This document shows positions 29,705-43,280 of a DNA stretch of 64,000 nucleotides, one piece after another (positions within the stretch are counted from its first letter, which is position 1; each line of letters begins with the position of its first letter). The DNA is from Variovorax dokdonensis (lineage in GTDB: Bacteria; Pseudomonadota; Gammaproteobacteria; Burkholderiales; Burkholderiaceae_C), in assembly GCF_030316895.1 (NCBI RefSeq), contig NZ_JASZYV010000001.1:310001-374000 (forward strand), read 5' to 3'. A model generated the notes under the pieces. It searched no databases. It worked only from the letters and a program-made list of their open reading frames with translations, and had not been told where the DNA came from. A program made the translations under genes and the position numbers.

Positions 29705-30226
29705 CTAAAGGTACAGTTTTTGAAGCAGGTGGATCAGCGATTCGCGCTCGCGGGTGCTCAGCTTGGCGCTGGCATCGAGTTCGGCCTGGGTCACGGCCCG
29801 CTCAGCGTCGGCGGTGAGGCGCTCGCCTTCGGGCGTGAGGTGAAGGCCGACGGCGCGTCCATCGTGCGGGTGGGGCCGGCGCTCGATCAGACCGCGGCTG
29901 TCCAGCGTCGAGATGAGGTTGACCAGGTTGGGCGGCAGGATGTCCAGCGTGGCGCAAAGCTGCCGCGACGTGGCGCCGGGGTTGTGCGCCAGCAGCGACA
30001 ACACCGAGAAATCGACCTGCTTGAGCCCGTAGGGCGCCATCCGCTCGGCGAAAACCGTGCTGATCTGCGACCACGCGCGTCGCGCGTTGTAGCCCACCAG
30101 CGTTTGCAGGAAGCGGCTGTTGAGCCGGTCATTGCGCGAGCTCGCCTTTGCGGGGGCGGGCGTGGTTCCGTTGGGGTCGGCAGCGGTTGTCTTGATGCTG
30201 CTGCGCGAAGTTCGCTTCATCGTCAT
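29705..30226 (-). CDS. MarR-family regulator, probable hydroxycinnamate regulator
   Basis: 173 residues from the ATG at 30226. The winged-helix core runs from VDFSVLSLLAHNPGATSRQL through LVNLISTLDSRGLIERRP and the wing DGRAVGLHLTPEGE. The N-terminus has an extra 30 residues rich in Ser/Thr/Lys. It is the last gene of the minus-strand operon that begins with the crotonase gene. Related MarR proteins (CouR, FerR) repress hydroxycinnamate genes and release DNA on binding the hydroxycinnamoyl-CoA. A fitting inverted-repeat operator is at 40422-40458. Placing the repressor at the end of its own operon gives autoregulation. Confidence 0.88.
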   Translation of the reverse strand: MTMKRTSRSSIKTTAADPNGTTPAPAKASSRNDRLNSRFLQTLVGYNARRAWSQISTVFAERMAPYGLKQVDFSVLSLLAHNPGATSRQLCATLDILPPNLVNLISTLDSRGLIERRPHPHDGRAVGLHLTPEGERLTADAERAVTQAELDASAKLSTRERESLIHLLQKLYL

Positions 30227-30255: not shown

Positions 30256-32013
30256 TCAGCCGCGCGCCAGGGAGGGCGCGGCGCCGGCGGCGGCCTGCTG
30301 CACCTGCTCGCAGGCCCGCTTGATCATGCCCAGGCGCAGATCGAACTCGGGCAGGACCCAGCGGCGGAAGGCTTGCGCGGGCGCGGCCCAGCGCGCGTCG
30401 TCCGGCCCGGCCGTGCGCTCGATGCGCGCCCACGACCAGGTCAGCAGCGTGATCATGACGAGGCGAAGGTAGTCGTCGGCCACTTCGTAGGGCAACTGCG
30501 GATCGGCCTGCGCGGCCATCGCGACGGCGGTGCCGATGTAGCGCAGTTGGGCCATGCGTCGCTGTGCATCGGCCTCGTTGTCGCGCGAGGCATCGAGCTC
30601 GTCCCGCAACTCGAGCAGGCATGCGGCAAAGGCAGCGCCCGCGTCCGGCAGCACCTTGCGCACCAGCAGGTCGATCGCCTGGATCTCGTTGGTGCCCTCG
30701 TAGATCATGGTGATGCGCGCATCGCGCAGCACTTGTTCGATGCCCCATTCGCGGATGTAGCCGTGGCCGCCGAAAACCTGCAGGCACTCGCTGCTGCCGT
30801 CGAAGGCCTGGCGCGAGCAGGCTGCCTTGAGCACCGGCGTGATGAAGCTGCACCAGCGCTGCGCACGTTCGCGTGCCTTGGGGTCTGCGGCATGCTTGGC
30901 CGCATCCAGCTGTTGCGCGGTCCGATAGGCCAACAGCCGGGCGCCGTCGATCCAGGCGCGCTGCGTGTCGAGGATGCGGCGCATGGCCGGGTGTTCGATG
31001 AGGAGGTCGGCACTGTCCTGCGGCCCGCGTGAGGCTGGTCGCAGGGGCGCGCGCATCTGCCGGCGCTCGCGGGCGTAGGCGTCTGCCTTCTGCCATGCGG
31101 CGTCGAGCAGGCCGATGCCCTGAAGCGCCACATGCAGGCGCGCCGCATTCATCATGACGAACATCGCGCCCAGCCCCTGGCCCGGCTCGCCCACCAGCCA
31201 GCCCGTGGCGTCGTCGAAGCGCATGGCGCAAGTGGGGCTGCCGTGCAGGCCCATCTTTTCCTCGATGCGCGTGCAGTGCGCAGCGTTGCGCGTGCCGTCC
31301 GGCAGCAGCTTGGGAACCAATGCCAGCGACAACCCCTTGGGTCCGGCGGGGGCGTCCGGCAGTCTCACCAGCACGAGGTGGACGATGTTGTCGGTCAGAT
31401 CGTGTTCGCCGCCGGAGATGAAGATCTTCTCGCCGCTGATGCGAAGGCTGCCGTCGGCCTGAGGCACGGCGCGGGTGCGCGCCAGTCCGAGGTCGGAACC
31501 CGCCTGCGATTCGGTCAGGCACATGGTCGCCAGCGTGCGGCCGCTGGCGATCTCCGCCAGATAGCGTGCGCGCAGGACGTCGTCGCCATGCTTCTTCAGG
31601 CACTCGTAGGCGCCGTGCAGCAGGCCCGGGGCCATGGTGAAGCCGTGATTGGCGGCTGACAGCCATTCGTAGAGCGATGCTTCCAGCACCGCCGGCAGGC
31701 CCTGGCCGCCATCGTCGACGGCCGCAGCCAGGGCGGGCCATCCGCCATCGACGAGCGCGCGATAGGCATCGGCAAAGCCGGGTGGTGTGTGAACGGCGCC
31801 AGTCTGGACGTCGAAGCGGCAGCCGATTTCGTCACCGTCGCGGTTCAGGGGCGCGACGACTTCGCCGACAAAGCGCCCCGCCTCCTGAAGCACCTGGCTC
31901 ATCAGGTCGGCATCGACTTCGGCGAAGGGAGGCAGCGCGGCGAGCGCTTCGGGAAGTTGCAGCACCGAGTGCTGCAGGAACATCAGGTCTTCCGGGCGGG
32001 GTTGGTAGTGCAT
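30256..32013 (-). CDS. acyl-CoA dehydrogenase (DmdC-like)
   Basis: 585 residues, longer than ordinary acyl-CoA dehydrogenases. An extra N-terminal segment (about 1-75) and a C-terminal helical extension match the 3-methylmercaptopropionyl-CoA dehydrogenase (DmdC)/AidB-like branch. Flavin-contact motif MCLTESQAGSDLGL and the catalytic Glu in MIYEGTNEIQAID are present. Its place in the hydroxycinnamate operon suggests it desaturates dihydro-hydroxycinnamoyl-CoA esters to feed the same pathway. It lies 33 bp after the ABC ATPase gene and 29 bp before marR. Confidence 0.9.
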   Translation of the reverse strand: MHYQPRPEDLMFLQHSVLQLPEALAALPPFAEVDADLMSQVLQEAGRFVGEVVAPLNRDGDEIGCRFDVQTGAVHTPPGFADAYRALVDGGWPALAAAVDDGGQGLPAVLEASLYEWLSAANHGFTMAPGLLHGAYECLKKHGDDVLRARYLAEIASGRTLATMCLTESQAGSDLGLARTRAVPQADGSLRISGEKIFISGGEHDLTDNIVHLVLVRLPDAPAGPKGLSLALVPKLLPDGTRNAAHCTRIEEKMGLHGSPTCAMRFDDATGWLVGEPGQGLGAMFVMMNAARLHVALQGIGLLDAAWQKADAYARERRQMRAPLRPASRGPQDSADLLIEHPAMRRILDTQRAWIDGARLLAYRTAQQLDAAKHAADPKARERAQRWCSFITPVLKAACSRQAFDGSSECLQVFGGHGYIREWGIEQVLRDARITMIYEGTNEIQAIDLLVRKVLPDAGAAFAACLLELRDELDASRDNEADAQRRMAQLRYIGTAVAMAAQADPQLPYEVADDYLRLVMITLLTWSWARIERTAGPDDARWAAPAQAFRRWVLPEFDLRLGMIKRACEQVQQAAAGAAPSLARG

Positions 32014-32046: not shown

Positions 32047-32796
32047 TTAGCGGGCGGCGCCCAGATAGGTGTCGATGACGCGCGCGTCGCCGGCCAGTTC
32101 GCGCGCCGGCCCTTGGAGGCTGACGCTGCCCATTTCCAGCACGTAGCCGTGGTCGGCCACTTCCAAAGCCGCGCGGGCGTTCTGCTCGACCAGCAAGATG
32201 GTCGCGCCGGTGGCGCGCAGCTTGTCGACGGTGCGGAAGATCTCCTGTACGACCAGCGGCGCGAGGCCCAGACTGGGCTCGTCAAGCATCAACAGGCGCG
32301 GCCTCGACATGAGCGCGCGGCCCACCGCCAGCATCTGGCGCTCGCCGCCCGACAGGGTGCCGGCCAGTTGCATGCGGCGTTCGGCCATGCGCGGGAACAA
32401 GTCGTAGACCGACTGCAGCTGCGCACGCCAATCCCGGTTGCGCAGGCGAACCTGACGGAATGCGCCGAGCACCAGGTTGTCTTCGACCGTCATGGTGCCG
32501 AACAGCTCGCGCTTCTCGGGCACCAGGGCGATGCCCAGCATCACGCGTTCCTCGAGGGTCATGCCGTCGATCGGCCGGCCGTCGAACTCGATGCTGCCGC
32601 GCGCGGGCAGCACGCCCATCAGCGAGTTCAGCAGGGTGGACTTGCCAGCGCCGTTGGGCCCGATGACGGTGATGACGCTGCCCTCGGGCGCTTCGAGCGA
32701 AATGCCGTGCAGCACTTCGGCGCGGCCGTATCCGGCGTGCAGGTCCCGGATGCGCAGCAGGGGTGCGGCAGGTGCCGCTTGTGCAATCGCGTTCAT
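32047..32796 (-). CDS. ABC transporter ATPase, LivF type
   Basis: 249 residues. Walker [10 protein letters not shown], signature LSGGERQML, Walker B LLMLDEPSLGL and the H-loop region LLVEQN are all present, and the short C-terminal part is typical of LivF. It is the second ATPase of a branched-chain-type (HAAT) importer; the first is fused to the permease in the next gene upstream. The gap is 5 bp. The importer as a whole probably takes up aromatic acids rather than amino acids, judged from the operon. Confidence 0.92.
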   Translation of the reverse strand: MNAIAQAAPAAPLLRIRDLHAGYGRAEVLHGISLEAPEGSVITVIGPNGAGKSTLLNSLMGVLPARGSIEFDGRPIDGMTLEERVMLGIALVPEKRELFGTMTVEDNLVLGAFRQVRLRNRDWRAQLQSVYDLFPRMAERRMQLAGTLSGGERQMLAVGRALMSRPRLLMLDEPSLGLAPLVVQEIFRTVDKLRATGATILLVEQNARAALEVADHGYVLEMGSVSLQGPARELAGDARVIDTYLGAAR

Positions 32797-32801
32797 GTGG
32801 T

Positions 32802-34625
32802 TCAGTGTTCGGTTCCGAGGTAGGCGGCGCGCACCTTCTCGCTGCGTTGCACTTCGGCCGGCGTGCCCTCCATCAGGTGCGTGCCGAACTCCATCACGAC
32901 GATGTGGTCGCAGACATCCATGACCAGGCTCATGTCGTGCTCGACCAGCAGGATGCCCATCCCTTCGGCGCGCAGGCCGCGAAGCACTTCGGCCAGCGCC
33001 TGCTTTTCCTTGTGGCGCAGGCCGGCGGCGGGCTCGTCGAGCAGCAGCAATGCCGGATCGGCGGCCAGGGCGCGGGCGATTTCGAGCAGGCGCTGCTGGC
33101 CCATGGCGAGGTTGCCGGCCTGCTCGTGCATCAGCTCGCCCAGGCCCACGCGCTGCAGTTGGCGCTCTGCCTCGCGCAGCAGTTCGCGCTCCTGCGTGCG
33201 GTCGGTGCGCAGCATGGCGGCCAGGGGGCCCTTGCGGCCGCGCAGGTGCGCGCCCAGCGCGGCGTTTTCGAGCACCGTCATCTCGGGCACCAGCTTGACG
33301 TGCTGGAAGGTGCGCGACATGCCCAGACGAGCGATGCGGCGCGAAGGCAGGCCGTCGATGCGCTGGCCGCGGAAGTTCACCGCGCCGCCGCTGGCGCGCA
33401 GCACGCCGGTGACCAGGTTGAAAGTGGTGGATTTGCCGGCGCCGTTCGGGCCAATCAGGCCGACGATCTGGCCCGCACGCGTCTGGAAGCTGATGTCGTT
33501 CACCGCCACCAGGCCGCCGAAAGTCTTGCGCACCGCCTGCACGTCCAGAAGCACCTCGCCGGCCGCGGGCATGGCGCGCTTGGGCAGCGCGGCGGCGTCG
33601 TGCCAATCCACCTTGCGCGGCGCCCGTGCGAACTTGCGGTCGACGAAGGACCAGAGCCCGTCCGGCAGGTACTTGAGCACCAGCACCAGCAGGATGCCGA
33701 AGACGATCACCTCGTAGCTGCCGGACGTGCCGATCAGCATCGGCAAGAGCACCTGCAATTGGTCTTCCAGCACCTTGACGACGCCGGCGCCCGCGATGGC
33801 GCCCCACACGTGAGCCGCACCGCCCATCACCGCCATGAAGAGGTATTCGATGCCCATCTTCAAGCCGAAGGGCGACGGATTGACCGTCCGCTGGAAGTGC
33901 GCGAACAGCCAGCCGGAGATCGAGGCCAGCATGGCCGCCAGCACGAAGATGCCGACCTTGTGGCGCAAGGTGTCGATGCCCATGGCTTCCGCCATCTGGG
34001 AGCCGCGCGCCAGCGCGCGCACGGCGCGGCCGGAGCGCGAATCGAGCAGGCGCACCAGCGCGAAGGATGCCGCCAGGACGAACAGCCACACGAGCCCGTA
34101 GAACAGCCGGCGCTGTCCGATCTCGTAGCCGAAGATCGTCAGGCCCTCGATGCCCAGGATGCCGTCGTACTTGCCCAGCGCATCGACATTGCCCATCAGG
34201 TAGTAGAGCGACAGCGCCCACGCGATGGTGGCCAGCGGCAGGTAGTGGCCCGACATGCGCAGCGTGATGGCGCCGATCACCAGCGCGCTGACGCCTGTGA
34301 TGCCCAAGCCGATCAGCAAAGTGAGCCAGGGCGACACGCCCAGGTTCACCGTCAGCCACGCCGTCGTGTAGGCGCCGATGCCCACGAACGCGGCCTGCCC
34401 GAACGAGGTAAGCCCAGCCACGCCGGTGAGCAGCACCAGGCCCAGCACCGGCAGGGCGTACAGGCCGATGTAGTTGAGCTGGATGATCCAGAACTCGGGC
34501 AGCGGAAGAAGCGGCAGCAGCACGATCACCGCGACCAGGGCCCAAGGCCCGTAGCGCCGAAGCGCACTGCCCTTGGCGTTGAGCGCGTCTTGCGCGGCAG
34601 GTTGAGAAGAGACGGCGGTGTTCAT
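32802..34625 (-). CDS. ABC transporter permease-ATPase fusion (LivM-LivG)
   Basis: 607 residues from the ATG at 34625; an ATG at 34640 would overlap the livH-type stop and has a weaker ribosome site. Residues about 30-330 are a LivM permease with eight to ten helices and the [18 protein letters not shown] motif. A short hinge follows. From about 355 to the end is a LivG ATPase with Walker [10 protein letters not shown], signature [13 protein letters not shown] and [10 protein letters not shown]. This covers two subunits of a high-affinity importer in one chain. The fusion fixes one permease to one ATPase in the assembled complex. Confidence 0.92.
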
Positions 34626-34626
34626 G

Positions 34627-35667
34627 TCAATGCTCTTCATCGGAATGGCCGGAAGCCAACGAGCGCCACAGCAGCACCGGCAGGATGATGGTGAACACGA
34701 TCACTTCCTTGAAGGCGCTGGCCCAGAACGAACCGAAAGCCTCGATCACGCCGACCGACAGCGCGCCGATCAGCGCGCCGGGATAGCTGGCAAGCCCGGC
34801 GATCACCGCGGCGACGAAGCCCTTGAGGCCAATCAGGAATCCCGAGTCGTAGAACACGGTGGTGGTCGGCCCGATCAGCAGGCCCGACAGCGCGCCGATG
34901 GCCGCTGCGAGCGCGAAAGTGAGCCGGCCCGCGCCTTCGGTGGAGATGCCCATCAGGCGCGCACCCAGTCGATTGACCGCGGTCGCGCGCAGCGCCTTGC
35001 CATAGAGAGATCGTTCGAAGAACAGCCACAGCGCCACGATCAGCAGTGCCGACATGCCGAAGATCACCAGCGCCTGCCCGCTGACGTTGAGCGGGCCCAG
35101 CGGCATGCGCATGTCCCAGAACGACGGATTGCGAAAGCCCTCGGCGCCGAAGAACAGCAGCCCCAGGCCGGTCATGGCGAAGTGCACGCCCACAGATACG
35201 ATCAGCAGCACCAGCGTGCTGGCGCCCGCCAGCGATTGGTACGCCACGCGGTAGACCAGCGGCCCGAAGGCGGTGACGATGCACACCGTGAGCACCGCCT
35301 GCACCAGCATCGGAAAGCCCTTCGGAGCGGCCCAGGCGGAGACGCCGGCCACCAGTGCGGCGGGCACGAAGGTGCGAAGCGCGGCGACCAGCGCCGGGCC
35401 CGGCCGACCACGATGCCGCCACACGCTGGCCAGGTCCATCAGCGCGGCCACGGCCGCCATGATCAGCAGCAGCCAGACCGTGCCCGGCACCTTGCCGGTC
35501 TGGAAGATGGCCAGCGTCAATGCCCCGTAGGCGACGAACTCGCCTTGCGGGATGAAGATGATTCGGGTCACGGTGAACACGAGCACGATGCACATGCCTA
35601 GCAAGGCATAGATCGCGCCGTTCGTGAGCCCATCCAGCATCAGGATGCTGGCAATCGAAAAGTCCAT
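34627..35667 (-). CDS. ABC transporter permease, LivH type
   Basis: 346 residues, somewhat longer than E. coli LivH because of an extra cytosolic segment (about 75-105) with an Arg-rich stretch. Eight or more helices; the [20 protein letters not shown] start and [11 protein letters not shown] coupling-helix region are typical. It is the first membrane gene of the transporter cluster and is separated from the fusion gene by 1-2 bp. It pairs with the fused LivM-LivG subunit. Confidence 0.92.
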
Positions 35668-35728
35668 GTCGACAACTTCAAAACAGTAATACGCCCACTA
35701 ACACTGCGCACCGCCCAACGCGCCACGC

Positions 35729-35800
35729 CGCAGGGTGCGCCCCCTCCCCGCAGGAGGAGGGGGAGGCGGAGCGCGAAGCGCACAGCCTGGGGGGGGATGC
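35729..35800. repeat. GC-rich structured element between the livK- and livH-type genes
   Basis: The 133-bp gap between the binding-protein stop and the livH-type start contains CCCCCTCC pairing with GGAGGGGG around a short loop. The small hairpin GCGCGAAGCGC and a run of seven or more G follow. It could attenuate transcription so that the binding-protein gene is expressed more than the membrane genes, a usual arrangement. No second copy is visible here. Confidence 0.35.
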
Positions 35801-36937
35801 CTACTGCACCACCTTGAACTTCCCATCCACCACTTGCATCATGACGCCGGTCTCGTTGGTGTAGCCCCAGTGGTCCTGCGGCGTCCAGTTGAGCACGCCG
35901 TGCGAGATCACCGTGCGGCCCATCGTCTCGAAGGCGTCGCGCAGCGCAGCGCGGAATTCCGGCGTACCCGGTTGCGCCTTCTTCAATGCGATCGGCACGG
36001 CCTTTTCGAGGATCGTGTAGGCGTCGGTGCCGTGACCGGCGAACTGGTTGGCCGAAGCGGCGCCATAGGCCTTGGTATAGCCATCCAGGAATTCCAGCGC
36101 GGCCTTCTTGGAAGGGTTGCTGTCGGGCAGTTGCGCACCCAGCATCGCCGGGCCGGACACGACGAAGGTGCCGTCCGCATCCTTGCCGGCCACGCGCATC
36201 AGGTCAGGCGTGGCGGCGGCGTGGGTCTGATAGACCTTGCCCTTGTAGCCACGCTCCATGATCGCCTTTTGCGGCATGCCGGCGCCGCTGCCCGAAGCCA
36301 CGATCAGGATGGCGTCCGGATTGGCCGAGGTCAGCTTCAGGGCCTGCGCCGTCACGCTGGTGTCGGCGCGAGCGAAGCGCTCGGTGCCGACGATCTTCAT
36401 GCCGTTCTTGCCGGCCTCTTCGGTCAGGGCCTTGAGCCACAGTTCGCCATAGGCATCGGTGTAGCCGAGGAAGCCGATGGTCTTGATGCCCTGCTTCTTC
36501 ATGTGCTCGACCATGGCGTAGGCCATGACGTTGTTCGACTGCGGCAGGCGGAAGAACCACTTGTCCTTGCCCGGCGGAAGGCCGGCGGGCGATGTGGCCA
36601 GTTGCGGCGTCTGCGCTTCGGCAGTCACGTCGGCCATCGGAATGGCGACCGGCGTGGCGGAGGAGCCGATGATCACGTCCACCTTGTCTTCGGTGACCAG
36701 GCGTTGCGCGGCCTTGACGCCGGCCGTCGGATCGCTGGCATCGTCGAGCACCACCAGCTTGATGTTCTGGCCGGCCACGGTCTTGGGCCAGATCATGATG
36801 GCGTTCTTCACCGGAATGCCCAGGCCGGATGCGGGGCCGGTGAGCGGCTGCACCACGCCCACCGTCAGGTCGGCATGGGCAACGCCCGCCAGGGTCAGGG
36901 CCAGCAGGCTGGCAAGCAGGGTCTTCTTGGTCTTCAT
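35801..36937 (-). CDS. ABC transporter substrate-binding protein, LivK type (aromatic acid)
   Basis: 378 residues with a Sec signal (MKTKKTLLASLLALTLAGVAHA, cleavage after AHA, residue 22). The mature Peripla_BP_6 domain starts DLTVGVVQPLTGPASGLG and includes VVLDDASDPTAGVKAAQRL. The family includes receptors for branched-chain amino acids and for aromatic acids such as CouP, the R. palustris p-coumarate/ferulate receptor. The operon context favours the aromatic ligand; no residue-level ligand test was possible by reading. It lies between the SDR gene and the permease genes. Confidence 0.9.
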   Translation of the reverse strand: MKTKKTLLASLLALTLAGVAHADLTVGVVQPLTGPASGLGIPVKNAIMIWPKTVAGQNIKLVVLDDASDPTAGVKAAQRLVTEDKVDVIIGSSATPVAIPMADVTAEAQTPQLATSPAGLPPGKDKWFFRLPQSNNVMAYAMVEHMKKQGIKTIGFLGYTDAYGELWLKALTEEAGKNGMKIVGTERFARADTSVTAQALKLTSANPDAILIVASGSGAGMPQKAIMERGYKGKVYQTHAAATPDLMRVAGKDADGTFVVSGPAMLGAQLPDSNPSKKAALEFLDGYTKAYGAASANQFAGHGTDAYTILEKAVPIALKKAQPGTPEFRAALRDAFETMGRTVISHGVLNWTPQDHWGYTNETGVMMQVVDGKFKVVQ

Positions 36938-36970: not shown

Positions 36971-37735
36971 TTAGCGCGGCGCCATGCGCAGGGCGCCATC
37001 GAGCCGGATCACCTCGCCATTGAGGTGGCCGTTGGTGACGAAGTGGCAGGCCAACTCGGCAAATTCGGAAGGCTGTCCCAGGCGCGGCGGGAAGGGAATG
37101 GAAGCCGCCAGCGATTGCTGGACCGCCTCCGGCAACTCCATGAGCAGCGGCGTGGCGAAAAGCCCTGGCGCGATGGTGCACACGCGGATGCCATGCTGCG
37201 CGAGGTCCCGCGCCATCGGCAGGGTCATGCCCACCAGGCCCCCTTTGGATGCGCTGTAGGCCTGCTGGCCCACCTGGCCGTCGAAGGCGGCCACCGATGC
37301 GGTGAACAGGATCACGCCGCGCTCGCCACCGTCGAGCGCGGGCAGCTTGGCGCAGGCGGCGGCGAACAGGCGGCTCACGTTGTAGGCGCCCACCAGGTTG
37401 ACGTTGACCACGCGCTGGAAGTCTTCCAGCGGGGCCGGGTTGCCGTCCTTGCCGACGATGCGCTTGGCCGTGCCAATGCCTGCGATGTTCATCAGCAGCC
37501 GCGCAGGACCATGCGCCTTCTCGGCGGCCTGCAGGGCGGCGGTGACACTGGCGGTGTCGGTGATGTCGCATTCGCAGGCGATGCCGCCGATCTCGTCGGC
37601 CACCTTGCGCGCCAGTTCGAGGTTGCGATCGAGGATGGCGACCTTGGCGCCCTTGGCGGCCAATGCGCGGGCCGTGGCTTCGCCCAGGCCCGAAGCGCCG
37701 CCGGTGACCAAGGCGGCTTGGGAATCGATGTTCAT
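36971..37735 (-). CDS. SDR 3-hydroxyacyl-CoA dehydrogenase-like
   Basis: 254 residues. Motifs: TGGASGLG (11-18), Asp at the end of the second strand (ILDRN), which favours NAD, NIAG, a catalytic Ser in LFTASVAAF and YSASKGG with Tyr and Lys. The sequence is close in layout to the human HSD10/type II 3-hydroxyacyl-CoA dehydrogenases. In the pathway suggested it would oxidise the beta-hydroxy-aryl-propionyl-CoA made by the crotonase to the beta-keto thioester. It lies 33 bp before livK-type and 34 bp after the ligase gene. Confidence 0.9.
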
Positions 37736-37769
37736 CTGGTTCGTCTCCTTGAAGAGCGTCTTGCTTGTT

Positions 37770-39635
37770 TCAGGCCTTGGGCAGCAGGGTGAAGGGCAGC
37801 GTGCCTCCGTGCAGCGCCTCGACCAATGCGGCCCGGTGCTTGAGCACGGCGCGCTGGTTGATGGAGCCCTTGTCCGTCACCTCGCCCTTGTCGATCGAAG
37901 GCGGGTCGGCCATCAGGTGCATGCGTGCCACGCGGCTGGCGCTGCCGGTGGCGCTGGCCGCCAGCGTGTCGAGCACGGTCTGGAAGTGCGCCTGCACCGG
38001 CGCGCTTTCCAGCACCTGCTTCATCGGGGTATCGACCGGCAATCCCGCAAGCTGGCGCACGGCCTGCGTCGGGAAGATGAGCGCGCCGACCTCCTTCATG
38101 TTCAGGCCGGTCAGCACCGCATCCTGGACATAGGGTGCGCCGGCCGCAATGATCTTCGCGCGCATCGGCCCCACGCTGACGAAGGTGCCCGTCGTGAGCT
38201 TGAAGTCCTCGGCGATGCGGCCATCGAAGCGCAGGCCGCGATGGATGTCGTTGGGGTCGATCCAGGTCACGGCATCGCCCGTGCAGAAGTAGCCTTCCTC
38301 GTCGAAGGCCTCGGCGGTCGCCTGTGCATCGCGCCAGTAGCCGGGCGTGACGTTGGGGCCGCGATAGCGCACCTCGGTCTTGCCGTCCACGTCCACCAGC
38401 TTGAGCGACAGGCCCGGCGTGGGCAGGCCCAGGTCGCCCGAAGTGACTTCCGGGCCGGAGATGTACAGCGCAAACGGACCGGATTCGGTCATTCCCAGGC
38501 CGGTTCCCATCACGATGCGCTCGCCGATCTCTTCTTCCTGCGTGCGGTGCAGGCTGTCCCACACGGCTTGCGGCAGCGCAGCGCCGGCGTAGAAGAACAT
38601 GCGAACGCGCGACAGCAGCGTCTTGCGCAGATGCGCATCGTCGCGCATGGCCTGGGCGATGGCCTCGAAGCCCGTGGGGACGTTGAAGTAGATGGTGGGC
38701 GAGATCTCGCGCAGGTTGCGCAGCGTCTCGGCCATGCCGGCGGCGGTGGGGCGGCCATCGTCGATGTACAGCGTGCCGCCGTTGTTCAGCACGATGCCCA
38801 CGTTGTGGTTGCCACCGAAGGTGTGGTTCCAGGGCAGCCAATCGATCAGTACCGGCGGCTCCTCGGTCAGCGCGGGGATCGACTGCCGCAGCTGCTGCTG
38901 GTTTGCGCACCACATGCGGTGCGTGTTGATCACCGCCTTGGGCATCTTGGTCGAACCCGAGGTGAAGAGGAACTTGGTGATCGTGTCGGGCCCCGTCGCC
39001 TGCATGGCGGCATCGATGGCCGGCGTGGGTTCGGTGGCCAGCAGCGAGGCGAACGGCGTCACGTCGCGGCCGGGCAGGTCGCCTTCGGCCAGCACCACTT
39101 CGACATCGGGTCCGACCGTGGCGGCGATGGCGCGGCCGAAGCGCTTGGCGTCGTGGGCAAACACCAGGCCCGGCGTGAGCGTGGCCAGCACGTGGCGCAG
39201 CTTGTCGAAGTCCTGGCTGACCACGGAATAGGGCGGCGACACGGAACAATGCGGCACGCCGGCGTAGAGGCAGCCCAGCTTGAGCAACGCGTGCTCGATG
39301 CCGTTCTCCGACAGGATGGCGACGGGGCGCTCTTGCGACAGACCGCGGTCGATCAGCGCCTGGCCGATGCGGCGCGCGGCGTCCAGTGCCTGCGCGTAGG
39401 TGACGTGGATCCAGTCGCCCGTGCTGCCGTCGGGCAGCCGCTCGCGGCGCGCGATCATGGTGCGCTGCGGCGCGACCTCGGCCCAATGGCGCAGGCGGTC
39501 GGTGATGCGCTCGCAGTAGGGCGCCAGGGGCACTTCGGCCTCGAGGTAGCGCACGCCGGGCGCGCCCTCGCGCAGCACGCCGCGGGTGACGCCGAACTCC
39601 AGCCGGCGGTAGCGAGCGGCGGTCGAAGTGCTCAT
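37770..39635 (-). CDS. fcs: feruloyl-CoA synthase (hydroxycinnamate-CoA ligase)
   Basis: 621 residues from the ATG at 39635, which overlaps the crotonase stop by 4 bp (ATGA). It is an ANL-superfamily ligase: P-loop FTSGSTKMPKAVIN (224-237), TGLGMTESGPFAL as the A5 region, and the C-terminal DKGEVTDKGSINQRAVL found in feruloyl-CoA synthases. It would adenylate ferulate, p-coumarate or caffeate and form the CoA thioester with ATP, Mg2+ and CoA in the cytosol. The chain is longer than the plant 4CL-like type. The Fcs group assignment is firm; preferred substrate is not. Confidence 0.9.
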   Translation of the reverse strand: MSTSTAARYRRLEFGVTRGVLREGAPGVRYLEAEVPLAPYCERITDRLRHWAEVAPQRTMIARRERLPDGSTGDWIHVTYAQALDAARRIGQALIDRGLSQERPVAILSENGIEHALLKLGCLYAGVPHCSVSPPYSVVSQDFDKLRHVLATLTPGLVFAHDAKRFGRAIAATVGPDVEVVLAEGDLPGRDVTPFASLLATEPTPAIDAAMQATGPDTITKFLFTSGSTKMPKAVINTHRMWCANQQQLRQSIPALTEEPPVLIDWLPWNHTFGGNHNVGIVLNNGGTLYIDDGRPTAAGMAETLRNLREISPTIYFNVPTGFEAIAQAMRDDAHLRKTLLSRVRMFFYAGAALPQAVWDSLHRTQEEEIGERIVMGTGLGMTESGPFALYISGPEVTSGDLGLPTPGLSLKLVDVDGKTEVRYRGPNVTPGYWRDAQATAEAFDEEGYFCTGDAVTWIDPNDIHRGLRFDGRIAEDFKLTTGTFVSVGPMRAKIIAAGAPYVQDAVLTGLNMKEVGALIFPTQAVRQLAGLPVDTPMKQVLESAPVQAHFQTVLDTLAASATGSASRVARMHLMADPPSIDKGEVTDKGSINQRAVLKHRAALVEALHGGTLPFTLLPKA

Positions 39636-40405
39636 CCCTTGGTCACCTTGGCCGCGCGGCCTTCGAGGAAGTCGCTCAGGCGCCGCTTGGCCTCGGGGGC
39701 GGACTGCGCAATGGCGCAGATCAGCGATTCGGTGAAGAAGCCGTGGTCGGCGTTCTGGTCGGCGATGCGCGGCAAAGCGTGCATCAATGCGTAGTTGGTC
39801 AACGGCGCGTTTTCCGCGATGCGGCGCGCCAGCTCCATGGCCTTGTCGAAGGCGGTGCCTTCGGGCACCAGGTATTGGGCAAAGCCGGCACGCTCGCCGG
39901 CCTCGGCGTCGTAGACGCGGCCGGTGAGCATCATGTCCGTCATGCGGGCCACGCCGATCAGGCGCGGAATGCGCACCGATCCGCCGCCACCGACGAAGAT
40001 GCCACGCGAGCCTTCGGGCAAGGCATAGAAGGTGGTGCTGTCGGCCACGCGGATGTGGCAGGCGCTGGCCAGTTCCAGACCGCCGCCGACCACGGCGCCG
40101 TGCAGGGCTGCCACCACCGGCACCGGGCCGTGCTGGATGCGCTCTAGCGCCGCATGCCACATGCGCGAGTGGTGCATGCCTTGGGCCGCATCGCGCTCCT
40201 TCAGCTCGGAAAGGTCGAGGCCCGCGCAGAAATGCGGCCCTTCGCCATCGATGACCGCGGCACGCACGGTGTCGGGCAGTTGTTCGAATGTGTCGCGCAG
40301 GGCCAGAATGAGGCCGTCGTTCAGCGCGTTGCGCTTGGTGGCGCGCGTCAGGCGGATCACGGCGATCTCGCCTTGCAGTTCAAGTTTCAAATCAGCGTTC
40401 GACAT
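39632..40405 (-). CDS. enoyl-CoA hydratase/isomerase (crotonase)
   Basis: 257 residues from the ATG at 40405; an upstream ATG would run through the promoter. The crotonase oxyanion motifs are present: HFCAGLDLSEL and ALHGAVVGGGLELASA. The first catalytic Glu is in YALPEGSRGIF and the second position holds Asp (ARMTDMMLTG). The gene order beside a feruloyl-CoA synthase invites the name Ech, but the sequence does not show the typical hydroxycinnamoyl-CoA hydratase-lyase pattern and no vanillin dehydrogenase follows. Hydration only, to the beta-hydroxy ester, is therefore the preferred role. First gene of the operon. Confidence 0.88.
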   Translation of the reverse strand: MSNADLKLELQGEIAVIRLTRATKRNALNDGLILALRDTFEQLPDTVRAAVIDGEGPHFCAGLDLSELKERDAAQGMHHSRMWHAALERIQHGPVPVVAALHGAVVGGGLELASACHIRVADSTTFYALPEGSRGIFVGGGGSVRIPRLIGVARMTDMMLTGRVYDAEAGERAGFAQYLVPEGTAFDKAMELARRIAENAPLTNYALMHALPRIADQNADHGFFTESLICAIAQSAPEAKRRLSDFLEGRAAKVTKG

Positions 40406-40421
40406 ATTTGCATCCCAGGGG

Positions 40422-40458
40422 TTGAATCGATTATGGTTATGACAAATAATCAATTCAA
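40422..40458. promoter_or_regulatory. inverted-repeat operator with two overlapping opposed promoters
   Basis: The arms TTGAATCGATTAT (40422-40434) and ATAATCAATTCAA (40446-40458) are inverted repeats with one mismatch around an 11-bp spacer. Plus strand: -35 TTGAAT 40422-40427, 17-bp spacer, -10 AATAAT 40445-40450, towards the amidohydrolase. Minus strand: -35 TTGAAT 40458-40453, 17-bp spacer, -10 CATAAT 40435-40430, towards the crotonase operon. A MarR dimer on this palindrome would cover both promoters. The A+T content is well above that of the surrounding DNA. It lies in the 106-bp divergent gap, ends 17 bp from the crotonase ATG and 53 bp from the amidohydrolase ATG. Confidence 0.65.
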
Positions 40459-40511
40459 GCTCGAAATCAGGTCCAACCCTAAGGACTTACCCGCATCCCG
40501 GAGACACTCGA

Positions 40512-41375
40512 ATGGACATTGAAAACCTTATTGCCATCGACACGCACACGCACGCCGAAGTCAGTTGCTGGAACCCATTCGACAACTACGGCGAGGAATA
40601 CGATCGCGCCGCCGACAAGTACTTCCGGTCGAGCCGGCGTCCGACCATTCAGGAAAGCATCGACTACTACCGCGAGCGCAAGATCGGCTTCGTCATGTTC
40701 GGTGTCGACGCCGAGTCCAACATGGGCCGCCGCCGGATTCCCAACGAAGAGATTGCCGAGGCAGCGCAAAAGAACCCCGACGTGATGATCGCGTTCGGCA
40801 GCGTCGATCCTCATAAGGGCAAGATGGGTGCGCGCGAGGCGCGGCGGTTGATCGAGGAGCACGGCGTTCGCGGCTTCAAGTTCCATCCCACCGTTCAGGG
40901 CTATCACCCGTACGACCGCATGGCCTGGCCCATCTATGAGGTGATCGCCGAGCACAAGCTGCCGGCGGTCTTCCATACCGGGCACAGCGGCATCGGTTCT
41001 GGCATGCGCTGTGGCGGCGGGCTGCGGCTGGAATACAGCAACCCCATGCACCTGGACGACGTGGCCATTGACTTCCCGGACATGCAGATCATCATGGCCC
41101 ACCCCAGCTTCCCTTGGCAGGACGAGGCGCTGTCGGTGGCCACGCACAAGCCGAACGTCTGGATCGACCTGTCCGGCTGGAGCCCCAAGTACTTTCCCAA
41201 GCAACTGGTGCAGTACGCCAACACGCTGCTGAAGGACCGCATCCTGTTCGGAAGCGACTATCCGCTCATCACCCCCGACCGGTGGATGAAGGACTTCGAG
41301 GATGCGGGCTTCAAGCCCGAAGTGATGCCCGGAATCCTGAAGGGCAATGCGGCCAGGCTCCTGGGCTTGAGCTGA
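40512..41375 (+). CDS. amidohydrolase-family (CouO-like) hydrolase
   Basis: 287 residues with GGAGA ahead of the ATG at 40512. Metal-site residues of amidohydrolase-2 proteins are present: His12 and His14 (DTHTH), His125 (FKFHP), His155 (VFHTG), His197 (MAHP) and Asp249 (FGSDYP). Known CouO of Rhodococcus jostii, a Zn-type deacetylase relative with an essential Asp257, removes the two-carbon unit from beta-keto phenylpropionates. The position here, divergent from the ligase/hydratase/SDR operon across a shared operator, supports the same job. The chemistry is inferred. A decarboxylase role (ACMSD-like) is an alternative. Confidence 0.85.
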   Translation: MDIENLIAIDTHTHAEVSCWNPFDNYGEEYDRAADKYFRSSRRPTIQESIDYYRERKIGFVMFGVDAESNMGRRRIPNEEIAEAAQKNPDVMIAFGSVDPHKGKMGAREARRLIEEHGVRGFKFHPTVQGYHPYDRMAWPIYEVIAEHKLPAVFHTGHSGIGSGMRCGGGLRLEYSNPMHLDDVAIDFPDMQIIMAHPSFPWQDEALSVATHKPNVWIDLSGWSPKYFPKQLVQYANTLLKDRILFGSDYPLITPDRWMKDFEDAGFKPEVMPGILKGNAARLLGLS

Positions 41376-41402: not shown

Positions 41403-43280
41403 TCACTGTTTTGTCGCAACCGGCAGCGATTCGTCCTGGCGCGACGGGTCTTCCTCTTCGGTCCACCCGGTCACCGCCCGCTTGCGGCGCACTTCGCGCT
41501 CCTTGGCCATCTGTTCTTCCATCTGCTGACGGCCCGCCTTGGCCGCGCTGATGAGTTGGGCTCGGTCCTTGTAGAGGGGATGCGACTCTTCCGCGAAGCG
41601 GATGTTGAGCTGGCGAAAGCGCATGGTGCTTTCGCGCGCCTCGTGTGCTGGCCAGCCCAGCACTTCCAGCACTTGCCTTGCGCTTCGCAGCGACGATTCG
41701 AACAGCTCGCGTTCGGCCAGGTGCACGTCACGATCGCGCAACTGGTACCAGTGATTGAGGTTGCGTGCCCGCGCCACGATGCGGGTGTCTGGAAAGTGTT
41801 CGCGCGCCAGATCGACGATCTCCAGCGATTGCTCCACGTCGTCGACGGCCACCACCAGCACCTTGGCCGTGGCGGCGCCGGCGGTGCGCAGCAAATCAAG
41901 GCGCGTTGCGTCGCCGTAAAACACCCGAAAGCCGAACTGGCGCAGGCCTTCGACCGTGTCGGGGTCGTGATCGAGCACGGTCACCTTCAGGCCTTGCGCG
42001 CTCATCACGCGGCCGATGATCTGGCCGTAGCGGCCAAAACCGCAGATCACGACCTTGGCTTCCTGCGGCTCCGAGATTTCTTCCATCGTCCGCTGGCCAT
42101 GGCTGCGCCAGTGCGGCGCCACCCAGCGATCGATGGCCACCAGCAGCAGCGGCGACAACAGCATCGACAAAGCCACCGCTCCGATCAGGAACGACGACAC
42201 CTCGTGCGGCAGAACGTCCGGGCCGGCGGCCTGGAACACGACGAAGGCGAATTCGCCGCCCTGGGCCAGCAGCAGCGTGAACACGGGGCGTTCGGGCACG
42301 GGCAGCTTCATCACCTTGGCCAGTCCGTAGATCGCCACCATCTTGACGAGCATGAAGCCGAACACCACCAGGGCCATCCAGCCCGGATGCGCCATCAGCA
42401 CGCCGAAGTCGATGCTCATGCCCACGGCGATGAAGAACAGCCCCAGCAGCAGGCCCTTGAAGGGTTCGATGTCGGTTTCGAGCTCGCGCCGGTATTCGCT
42501 TTCGGCCAGCAGCACGCCCGCGAGAAAGGCGCCCAGGGCCATCGACAGGCCCATCAACTGCATCAGCGCCGCGATGGCCACCACAAGCAGCAACGATGCC
42601 GCCGTAAAGATCTCGGGTGTGCGGCTGGCGGCAATCCAGCGCAAGGCCGGGCGCAGGAGCAGCCGGCCGCCGAGCACGATGCCGGCCACTACGGCGACGA
42701 TCTTGGCGCCTTCGATCGCCCTTTGCGTGCCGCTCATGGCCAGCGTCGGGTCGGGGTTCACGGCAAGAAGCGGCAGCAGCGCGAGGATCGGGATGGCAGC
42801 CACGTCCTGGAAGAGCAGGATCGAGAACGAGGCCTGGCCGCTCTCGGTGCGCAGCAGGTTGCGTTCGCCCATCACTTGCAGCGCGATGGCGGTGGACGAC
42901 AGGGCCAGTCCGAGTGCGGCCACTGTGGCGATGTGCCAATCAATGCCGGCAGCCACGGCCACCCCGAAAATCAGCGCCGCGCACAGCAACACCTGTGCGG
43001 AGCCCGCGCCGAAGATCGGCCGGCGCAGGTTCCAAAGCCGCTTGGGCTCCAGCTCCAGGCCGACCAGGAAGAGCATGAGCACCACACCGAACTCGGCGAA
43101 GTGCAGCACGTCTTCGGTGTTGCCCACGAGCTTGAAGCCCCACGGCCCGATGACGATGCCGGCCGCCAGGTAGCCGATGATGGAGCCCAGGCCCAACGCC
43201 TTCGACAGCGGCACCACCGCCACGGCGGCGCCAAGGTAGATGAGCGAGTTGACCAGCCAGGCCGGCGATGCGTGCTCCAT
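41403..43280 (-). CDS. kefC: KefC-type glutathione-regulated potassium/proton antiporter
   Basis: 625 residues. The membrane domain (about 1-390, twelve or so helices) has the CPA2 features LFLVGLELEPKRLWNLRRP and LLFQDVAAIPILALLPLLA. The cytosolic TrkA-N/RCK domain starts VVICGFGRYGQIIGRVMSAQG and binds nucleotide or glutathione. A charged coiled tail follows. KefC releases K+ and acidifies the cytoplasm on electrophile attack. The ancillary subunit gene kefF ends 2 bp upstream. The pair may protect against reactive aldehydes or quinones from the aromatic pathway next door (inference). Confidence 0.93.
   Translation of the reverse strand: MEHASPAWLVNSLIYLGAAVAVVPLSKALGLGSIIGYLAAGIVIGPWGFKLVGNTEDVLHFAEFGVVLMLFLVGLELEPKRLWNLRRPIFGAGSAQVLLCAALIFGVAVAAGIDWHIATVAALGLALSSTAIALQVMGERNLLRTESGQASFSILLFQDVAAIPILALLPLLAVNPDPTLAMSGTQRAIEGAKIVAVVAGIVLGGRLLLRPALRWIAASRTPEIFTAASLLLVVAIAALMQLMGLSMALGAFLAGVLLAESEYRRELETDIEPFKGLLLGLFFIAVGMSIDFGVLMAHPGWMALVVFGFMLVKMVAIYGLAKVMKLPVPERPVFTLLLAQGGEFAFVVFQAAGPDVLPHEVSSFLIGAVALSMLLSPLLLVAIDRWVAPHWRSHGQRTMEEISEPQEAKVVICGFGRYGQIIGRVMSAQGLKVTVLDHDPDTVEGLRQFGFRVFYGDATRLDLLRTAGAATAKVLVVAVDDVEQSLEIVDLAREHFPDTRIVARARNLNHWYQLRDRDVHLAERELFESSLRSARQVLEVLGWPAHEARESTMRFRQLNIRFAEESHPLYKDRAQLISAAKAGRQQMEEQMAKEREVRRKRAVTGWTEEEDPSRQDESLPVATKQ

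Follow-up and report, generated by a model that had tools for sequence, protein, structure and literature searches.

Opposed, overlapping promoters under one operator, the arrangement considered here, are found in the bioABFCD control region of E. coli, which differs in that its repressor, BirA, is a biosynthetic one and its operator is longer. Other described systems involve regulators of the MarR type. In Rhodococcus jostii RHA1, CouR is a MarR repressor of hydroxycinnamate catabolism. The CouR box, located between couN and couR, is a single inverted repeat (arms ATTGA/TCAAT, 5-bp gap) which covers two divergent promoters and overlaps both -35 boxes, and the authors suggest that this single operator regulates both (PMC4737184). 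HcaR (Atu1422) of Agrobacterium fabrum is also a MarR repressor, acting on genes for a feruloyl-CoA synthase, an enoyl-CoA hydratase, a dehydrogenase and one more enzyme as well as on the unit containing hcaR itself; the ring-chain-cleaving enzyme of this organism, Atu1421, is called a beta-keto-thiolase (PMC7797058). The MarR-like Saro_0803 of Novosphingobium aromaticivorans is associated at nov1 with an inverted repeat, GCAATA-N6-TATTGC, overlapping the -10 of the single promoter of this stilbene-degrading gene (PMC10046596).

We analysed a 64,000-nucleotide stretch of Variovorax dokdonensis DNA (the window), in which an operon headed by an enoyl-CoA hydratase gene, ech, faces away from an amidohydrolase gene. 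As in RHA1, a MarR repressor is predicted to govern hydroxycinnamate catabolism, and a single inverted repeat, its arms likewise 5 bp apart, probably lies over two divergent promoters. The arms are different (GTTAT/ATAAC). Instead of overlapping two -35 boxes, the repeat sits inside one promoter's spacer and over the other's -10, and the regulator gene, which in RHA1 is itself divergent, is found some 10 kb off, at the operon end. The present case may be viewed as the CouR principle with different arms and a different position of the site, in an operon that ends with the regulator gene. The putative HcaR-like gene set occurs in an order different from that of A. fabrum, and the overlap with a -10 is shared with Saro_0803. 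As far as can be judged from sequence and its conservation in relatives, the shared switch seems genuine though unremarkable, with its proposed operator corrected to a 19-bp site.

Gene organization

The intergenic region has a G+C content of 45%, against 66% across the window. It separates the amidohydrolase gene from a leftward run of which ech is the first gene:

40512..41375, plus strand: divergent amidohydrolase (Pfam Amidohydro_2, 185.8 bits; nearest solved structure 3irs, E 4.4e-25)
39632..40405, minus strand: ech, crotonase-fold enoyl-CoA hydratase (NF006013, 426.8 bits, cut-off 232; Pfam ECH_1)
37768..39635, minus strand: fcs, acyl/feruloyl-CoA synthetase-like, overlapping the 3' end of ech (NF009232, 710 bits, under the cut-off of 777; Pfam AMP-binding)
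36971..37735, minus strand: SDR dehydrogenase (Pfam adh_short)
32047..36937, minus strand: whole block of ABC uptake genes (from family searches, except the last ATPase)
35801-36937, minus strand: ABC substrate-binding protein
34627-35667, minus strand: ABC permease
32802-34640, minus strand: ABC permease-ATPase fusion
ending at 32047, minus strand: second ABC ATPase (assigned by ORF reading)
30256..32013, minus strand: acyl-CoA dehydrogenase (Pfam Acyl-CoA_dh)
29705..30226, minus strand: MarR-family regulator, final gene of the run (Pfam MarR_2)

The initial annotation had one MarR dimer shut both promoters, and the same-strand run does close with a MarR-type gene. The enzyme set would fit a CoA-dependent hydroxycinnamate pathway such as that of A. 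fabrum (PMC7797058), and the two divergent genes probably act in the degradation of plant phenolic acids. In the transporter block, the permease and ATP-binding domains are carried by a single reading frame (32802-34640). A KefC-type potassium efflux gene (41403-43280; NF002924, 927.7 bits) is convergent with the amidohydrolase gene. A search for a close plasmid copy of the locus gave no match.

Loci compared and scoring

An ech match was obtained in 127 of 200 family genomes; the best-scoring 70 places were used and lower-scoring ech matches omitted. A divergent amidohydrolase was present within the fetched stretch at 33 of the 70. The aligned family set contains 44 of these loci, 28 with the divergent amidohydrolase and 16 without, the 26 which scored <18 being dropped; the 44 were picked by similarity to a pattern containing the operator, so that conservation among them is partly built in. 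The genus set and the count of the operator core over all 70 places are independent of this pattern. The genus search, which used the amidohydrolase, gave a match in 56 of 61 genomes (the 5 others were left out), and two of the 56, namely the window and G122, were assigned to the family set for counting, leaving 54 genus loci. With the window included, the aligned relatives number 98 loci (28 + 16 + 54), and counts given below as triplets follow this order. All p-values ignore kinship and are too small, since the genomes are related. Promoter bit scores use weights, and a sigma-70 consensus, which we take to be the standard ones. Gene names at the flanks of sites elsewhere (thiolase, TRAP and ABC binding proteins, hydratase/lyase, aldehyde dehydrogenase, BoxB, fcs, DUF3237) were assigned by eye.

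A smaller palindrome within the 37-bp repeat

According to the initial annotation, a single 37-bp palindrome holds two fully overlapping, opposed promoters. The repeat is there, and so are the two promoter-like sites, each with 9 of 12 consensus bases:

40422..40458, no strand: 37-bp inverted repeat, 13-nt arms, 12/13 complementary, 11 nt apart
40453..40458, minus strand: -35 TTGAAT of the ech operon promoter (TTG in 28/28, 15/16 and 52/54 loci)
40430..40435, minus strand: -10 CATAAT of the ech operon promoter (predicted start near 40423)
40422..40427, plus strand: -35 TTGAAT of the rightward promoter P1, as first annotated
40445..40450, plus strand: -10 AATAAT of P1, over the right half of the operator proposed below
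40434..40452, no strand: proposed MarR operator TGGTTAT-GACAA-ATAATCA, 19 bp, 7-nt arms, 6/7

The arms of the repeat are TTGAATCGATTAT (40422-40434) and ATAATCAATTCAA (40446-40458). Inverted repeats having 13-nt arms, 12 or more matches and a loop of 3-30 were counted 16 times in the window, several of these being shifted counts of one repeat; simulated sequence gave 4.53 on average and 12 at most. Promoter-like sites as such are not enriched (5 in the window and a simulated mean of 5.2), but opposed promoters overlapping by at least 20 bp occur once, against a mean of 0.02 and a largest value of 1 in 60 simulations under an order-1 Markov model. The inverted repeat alone is less telling against chance than the opposed, overlapping promoter pair.

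The leftward promoter, TTGAAT-17-CATAAT (40458-40430), is strongly conserved: it is the top minus-strand promoter, at the identical place and with the same 17-bp spacer, in 28/28, 14/16 and 52/54 loci. The 37-bp repeat is not retained. Arms matching at 12/13 or better occur in 1/28 (the window itself), 0/16 and 0/54 loci, and the palindrome is mostly peculiar to the genome of the window. It was rejected as a MarR binding unit, and is unlikely to be a MarR site because it is not conserved and because 24 bp separate the centres of its arms, a large distance for a single dimer when MarR sites usually measure 16-20 bp (PMC10458429). We regard it as quite improbable that one MarR dimer recognizes the full palindrome with both promoters inside it, even though the repeat and its two 9/12 promoters exist, such an opposed pair is rare by chance and P1 is the top rightward promoter of this genome; besides its presence in 1/98 loci, the rightward -35 TTGAAT is itself found in 2/98 aligned loci and 3/111 matches in named genomes.

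A shorter palindrome, centred 3 bp to the right of the centre of the 37-bp repeat, is located in the spacer of the ech promoter. Its arms, TGGTTAT-N5-ATAAYCA, are retained with at least 6/7 matches in 24/28, 12/16 and 54/54 loci. The core GTTAT-N5-ATAAC occurs at 9/10 or better in 63 of the 70 family regions upstream of ech, a level reached by 26 of 3500 shuffled upstream regions, and in 21 of the 26 family loci whose flanks do not align. This retention of the core in a changed promoter context is as expected of a protein site. In its own genome the operator of the window is the sole exact match to TGRTTATN5ATAAYYA, two further places having 2 mismatches each where the control gave 2 to 3. The strict pattern TRGTTATN5ATAACYA, which misses the operator of the window since this is not of the strictest form, yields 30 sites in 29 of the 200 family genomes (the reversed control occurs in 8 genomes), and by coordinates 27 of the 30 are immediately upstream of ech. 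TGGTTAT-N5-ATAATCA is the best candidate for the MarR operator. We found no description of it for Comamonadaceae in the openly licensed literature, which is weak evidence of absence.

The MarR regulator

The MarR protein of the window has a winged-helix domain (Pfam MarR_2, 51.2 bits, cut-off 27). CouR is the best of its 45 matches among solved structures (6c28, E 1.6e-16; next, E 3.8e-9), which places it nearest to CouR, as for repressors of the CouR/HcaR type. Its best NCBIfam match, the Saro_0803 model, scores 70.6 bits where the cut-off is 200, and it is not assigned to that family. At sequence level, an inverted repeat lies over the promoter of the hydratase and CoA-ligase genes, in the ech spacer, with fcs next. 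The recognition-helix region is largely invariant across 30 orthologs.

The regulator gene and the site tend to occur together. The gene is present in 65 of the 70 family genomes, and the operator core accompanies ech in 61 of these 65 compared to 2 of the 5 others (Fisher p=0.006, kinship ignored); the core at 9/10 is thus absent from 4 MarR-bearing genomes, and one of the two which have it without the gene is 65% complete. Genomes carrying the strict operator include the MarR gene in 28 of 29 cases against 82 of 200 overall, the exception being a genome 65% complete. No operator at 11/14 or better was found beside the MarR gene itself in the 30 MarR surroundings examined, of 67 MarR places, and this counts against the link between MarR and the site. 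In one locus without the MarR gene (L066), another palindrome, AGTTCT-N5-AGAACT, takes the place of the operator about 48 bases upstream of ech, possibly reflecting a change of regulator.

Recurrence of the proposed operator at other genes

A longer pattern gave 111 matches in named genomes: 96 are directly upstream of ech, 6 are too close to the end of the locus to judge and 9 were placed elsewhere by the script. Three of these 9 (L241, L243 and L303) do have an adjoining ech start, and L291 carries the contig of L031, where ech is present. The others, together with the three strict sites located away from ech (L192, L193 and L194) and one second site, are as follows, all but L203 read by eye:

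L211 and L276: operator before fcs
L296: operator before an ABC binding protein
L300: operator between an amidohydrolase and another hydratase
L203: operator before an unassigned protein
L192: strict site between hydratase/lyase-like and aldehyde dehydrogenase-like genes
L193: strict site before an amidohydrolase 25 kb from ech
L194: strict site before a TRAP binding protein adjoining an amidohydrolase
L195: second site, before a thiolase-like gene

The operator recurs in other Comamonadaceae at ligase, transporter, hydratase/lyase, amidohydrolase and thiolase-like genes, which may constitute a small regulon. The L193 amidohydrolase has a promoter, TTGATG-18-TATAAT, with the operator in its spacer. 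Since amidohydrolases located elsewhere (L193 and L300) keep an operator of their own, joint control by one site at the locus studied here is plausible.

Two registers for the rightward promoter

The operator and the leftward promoter are conserved, and the rightward promoter differs in register among loci. In addition to P1 (TTGAAT-17-AATAAT) an alternative, P2, can be recognized:

40408..40413, plus strand: -35 TTGCAT of P2 (TTG in 38/54 genus loci)
40432..40437, plus strand: -10 TATGGT of P2, overlapping the ech -10

P1, the rightward promoter of the initial annotation, is indeed the best-scoring in the window (13.2 bits, compared to 8.3 for P2). Its -35 is poorly retained among relatives: an exact TTGAAT is found in 2/98 aligned loci and 3/111 named-genome matches, one of the latter sharing a contig with one of the former, and matches to the -35 consensus average 2.39 of 6 with the amidohydrolase and 2.56 without it (p=0.53). 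In each of the three sets, the one devoid of the amidohydrolase among them, the bases in this register resemble a -35 more than shuffled flanks do (the fractions of 200 shuffles reaching the observed value were 0.025, 0.010 and 0). The P1 -10 hexamer is nearer to consensus where the divergent amidohydrolase is present (mean 4.75 against 4.25, p=0.006).

These observations bear on whether the site might serve the leftward operon only, the amidohydrolase being transcribed from elsewhere or constitutively. We think this unlikely. It would account for the occurrence of the site in the 16 of 44 aligned family loci that lack a divergent amidohydrolase and for a P1 -35 which is no better when the amidohydrolase is there; it fits poorly with the improved rightward -10 and with amidohydrolases elsewhere, such as that of L193, which possess an operator.

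A more serious contender, although still short of probable, retains the same operator and has the amidohydrolase transcribed from P2 (TTGCAT-18-TATGGT, 40408-40437), whose -10 lies over that of ech, P1 being accidental or secondary. The P2 -35 TTG occurs in 18/28 loci with the amidohydrolase and 3/16 without (p=0.005, kinship ignored), and P2 is the top rightward promoter in 11/28 and 28/54 loci while the P1 register (k=14) is so in 9/28 and 17/54. Against this, P2 is the weaker of the two in the window and has an 18-bp spacer, its -35 bases adjoin the start codon of ech, where translation may be the reason for their retention, and its -10 provides no independent support, since both the ech -10 and the operator constrain the same bases.

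Conservation of the rightward promoter is weak in both registers, and the amidohydrolase would be transcribed from P1 or P2. Both overlap the ech promoter and the operator, so mutual exclusion of the two polymerases, judged from geometry, and joint repression remain likely, as does the predicted joint control of both directions. The earlier proposal of one MarR site over both promoters may hold for the conserved palindrome that overlaps them and is not supported for the 37-bp repeat kept in 1/98 loci.

A model for shared control

The reading we favour, and consider probable, is that of a shared control region in which one MarR operator in the spacer of the ech promoter also shuts the overlapping amidohydrolase promoter. 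RNA polymerase would initiate the long leftward operon at TTGAAT-17-CATAAT, unless a dimer of the MarR protein encoded by the operon itself occupied TGGTTAT-N5-ATAATCA and blocked this promoter. Hydroxycinnamoyl-CoA would release the repressor. The amidohydrolase would be transcribed from an overlapping promoter, either the P1 of this genome or P2, which more relatives retain, and would be shut by the same dimer, and two polymerases could not load together. The model is based on sequence, conservation, co-occurrence and regulon context, from which we infer MarR binding, the inducer, both starts and the exclusion.

It is doubtful, in our view, that the operator supplies parts of both promoters and that in this lineage a few substitutions (gain of the left TTGAAT and of AATAAT in the right half-site) made a one-way operator-promoter into an almost symmetric promoter that runs both ways over fully overlapping DNA. 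If this were true, polymerase competition would set the ratio of operon to hydrolase and one MarR dimer the total, and the spread of registers among relatives would represent snapshots of that evolution.

Mechanistically the shared control proposed here is a variant geometry of a known principle. It provides, for Variovorax and further Comamonadaceae, an exact predicted operator of a regulon of the hydroxycinnamate type, which may be of use in studies of plant-associated bacteria and in biosensors for lignin phenolics, and it illustrates how a palindrome drawn by eye can conceal a smaller, conserved one.

A second conserved box upstream of ech

One further element is located about 65 bp before the ech start:

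40479..40493, no strand: second box, CTAAGGACTTACCCG

Searches of genomes for the CTAGGG..ACCC box performed no better than the control (19 against 24; 30 against 30), and a literature search for its identity yielded nothing usable. In relatives it reads CTAGGGAYTTACCCG or GTGTTTACCCTAG. The TWSCC motif is found at a fixed offset (k 56-58) in 23/28, 16/16 and 52/54 loci (91/98), whether the amidohydrolase is present or absent, and the box is possibly an activator site.
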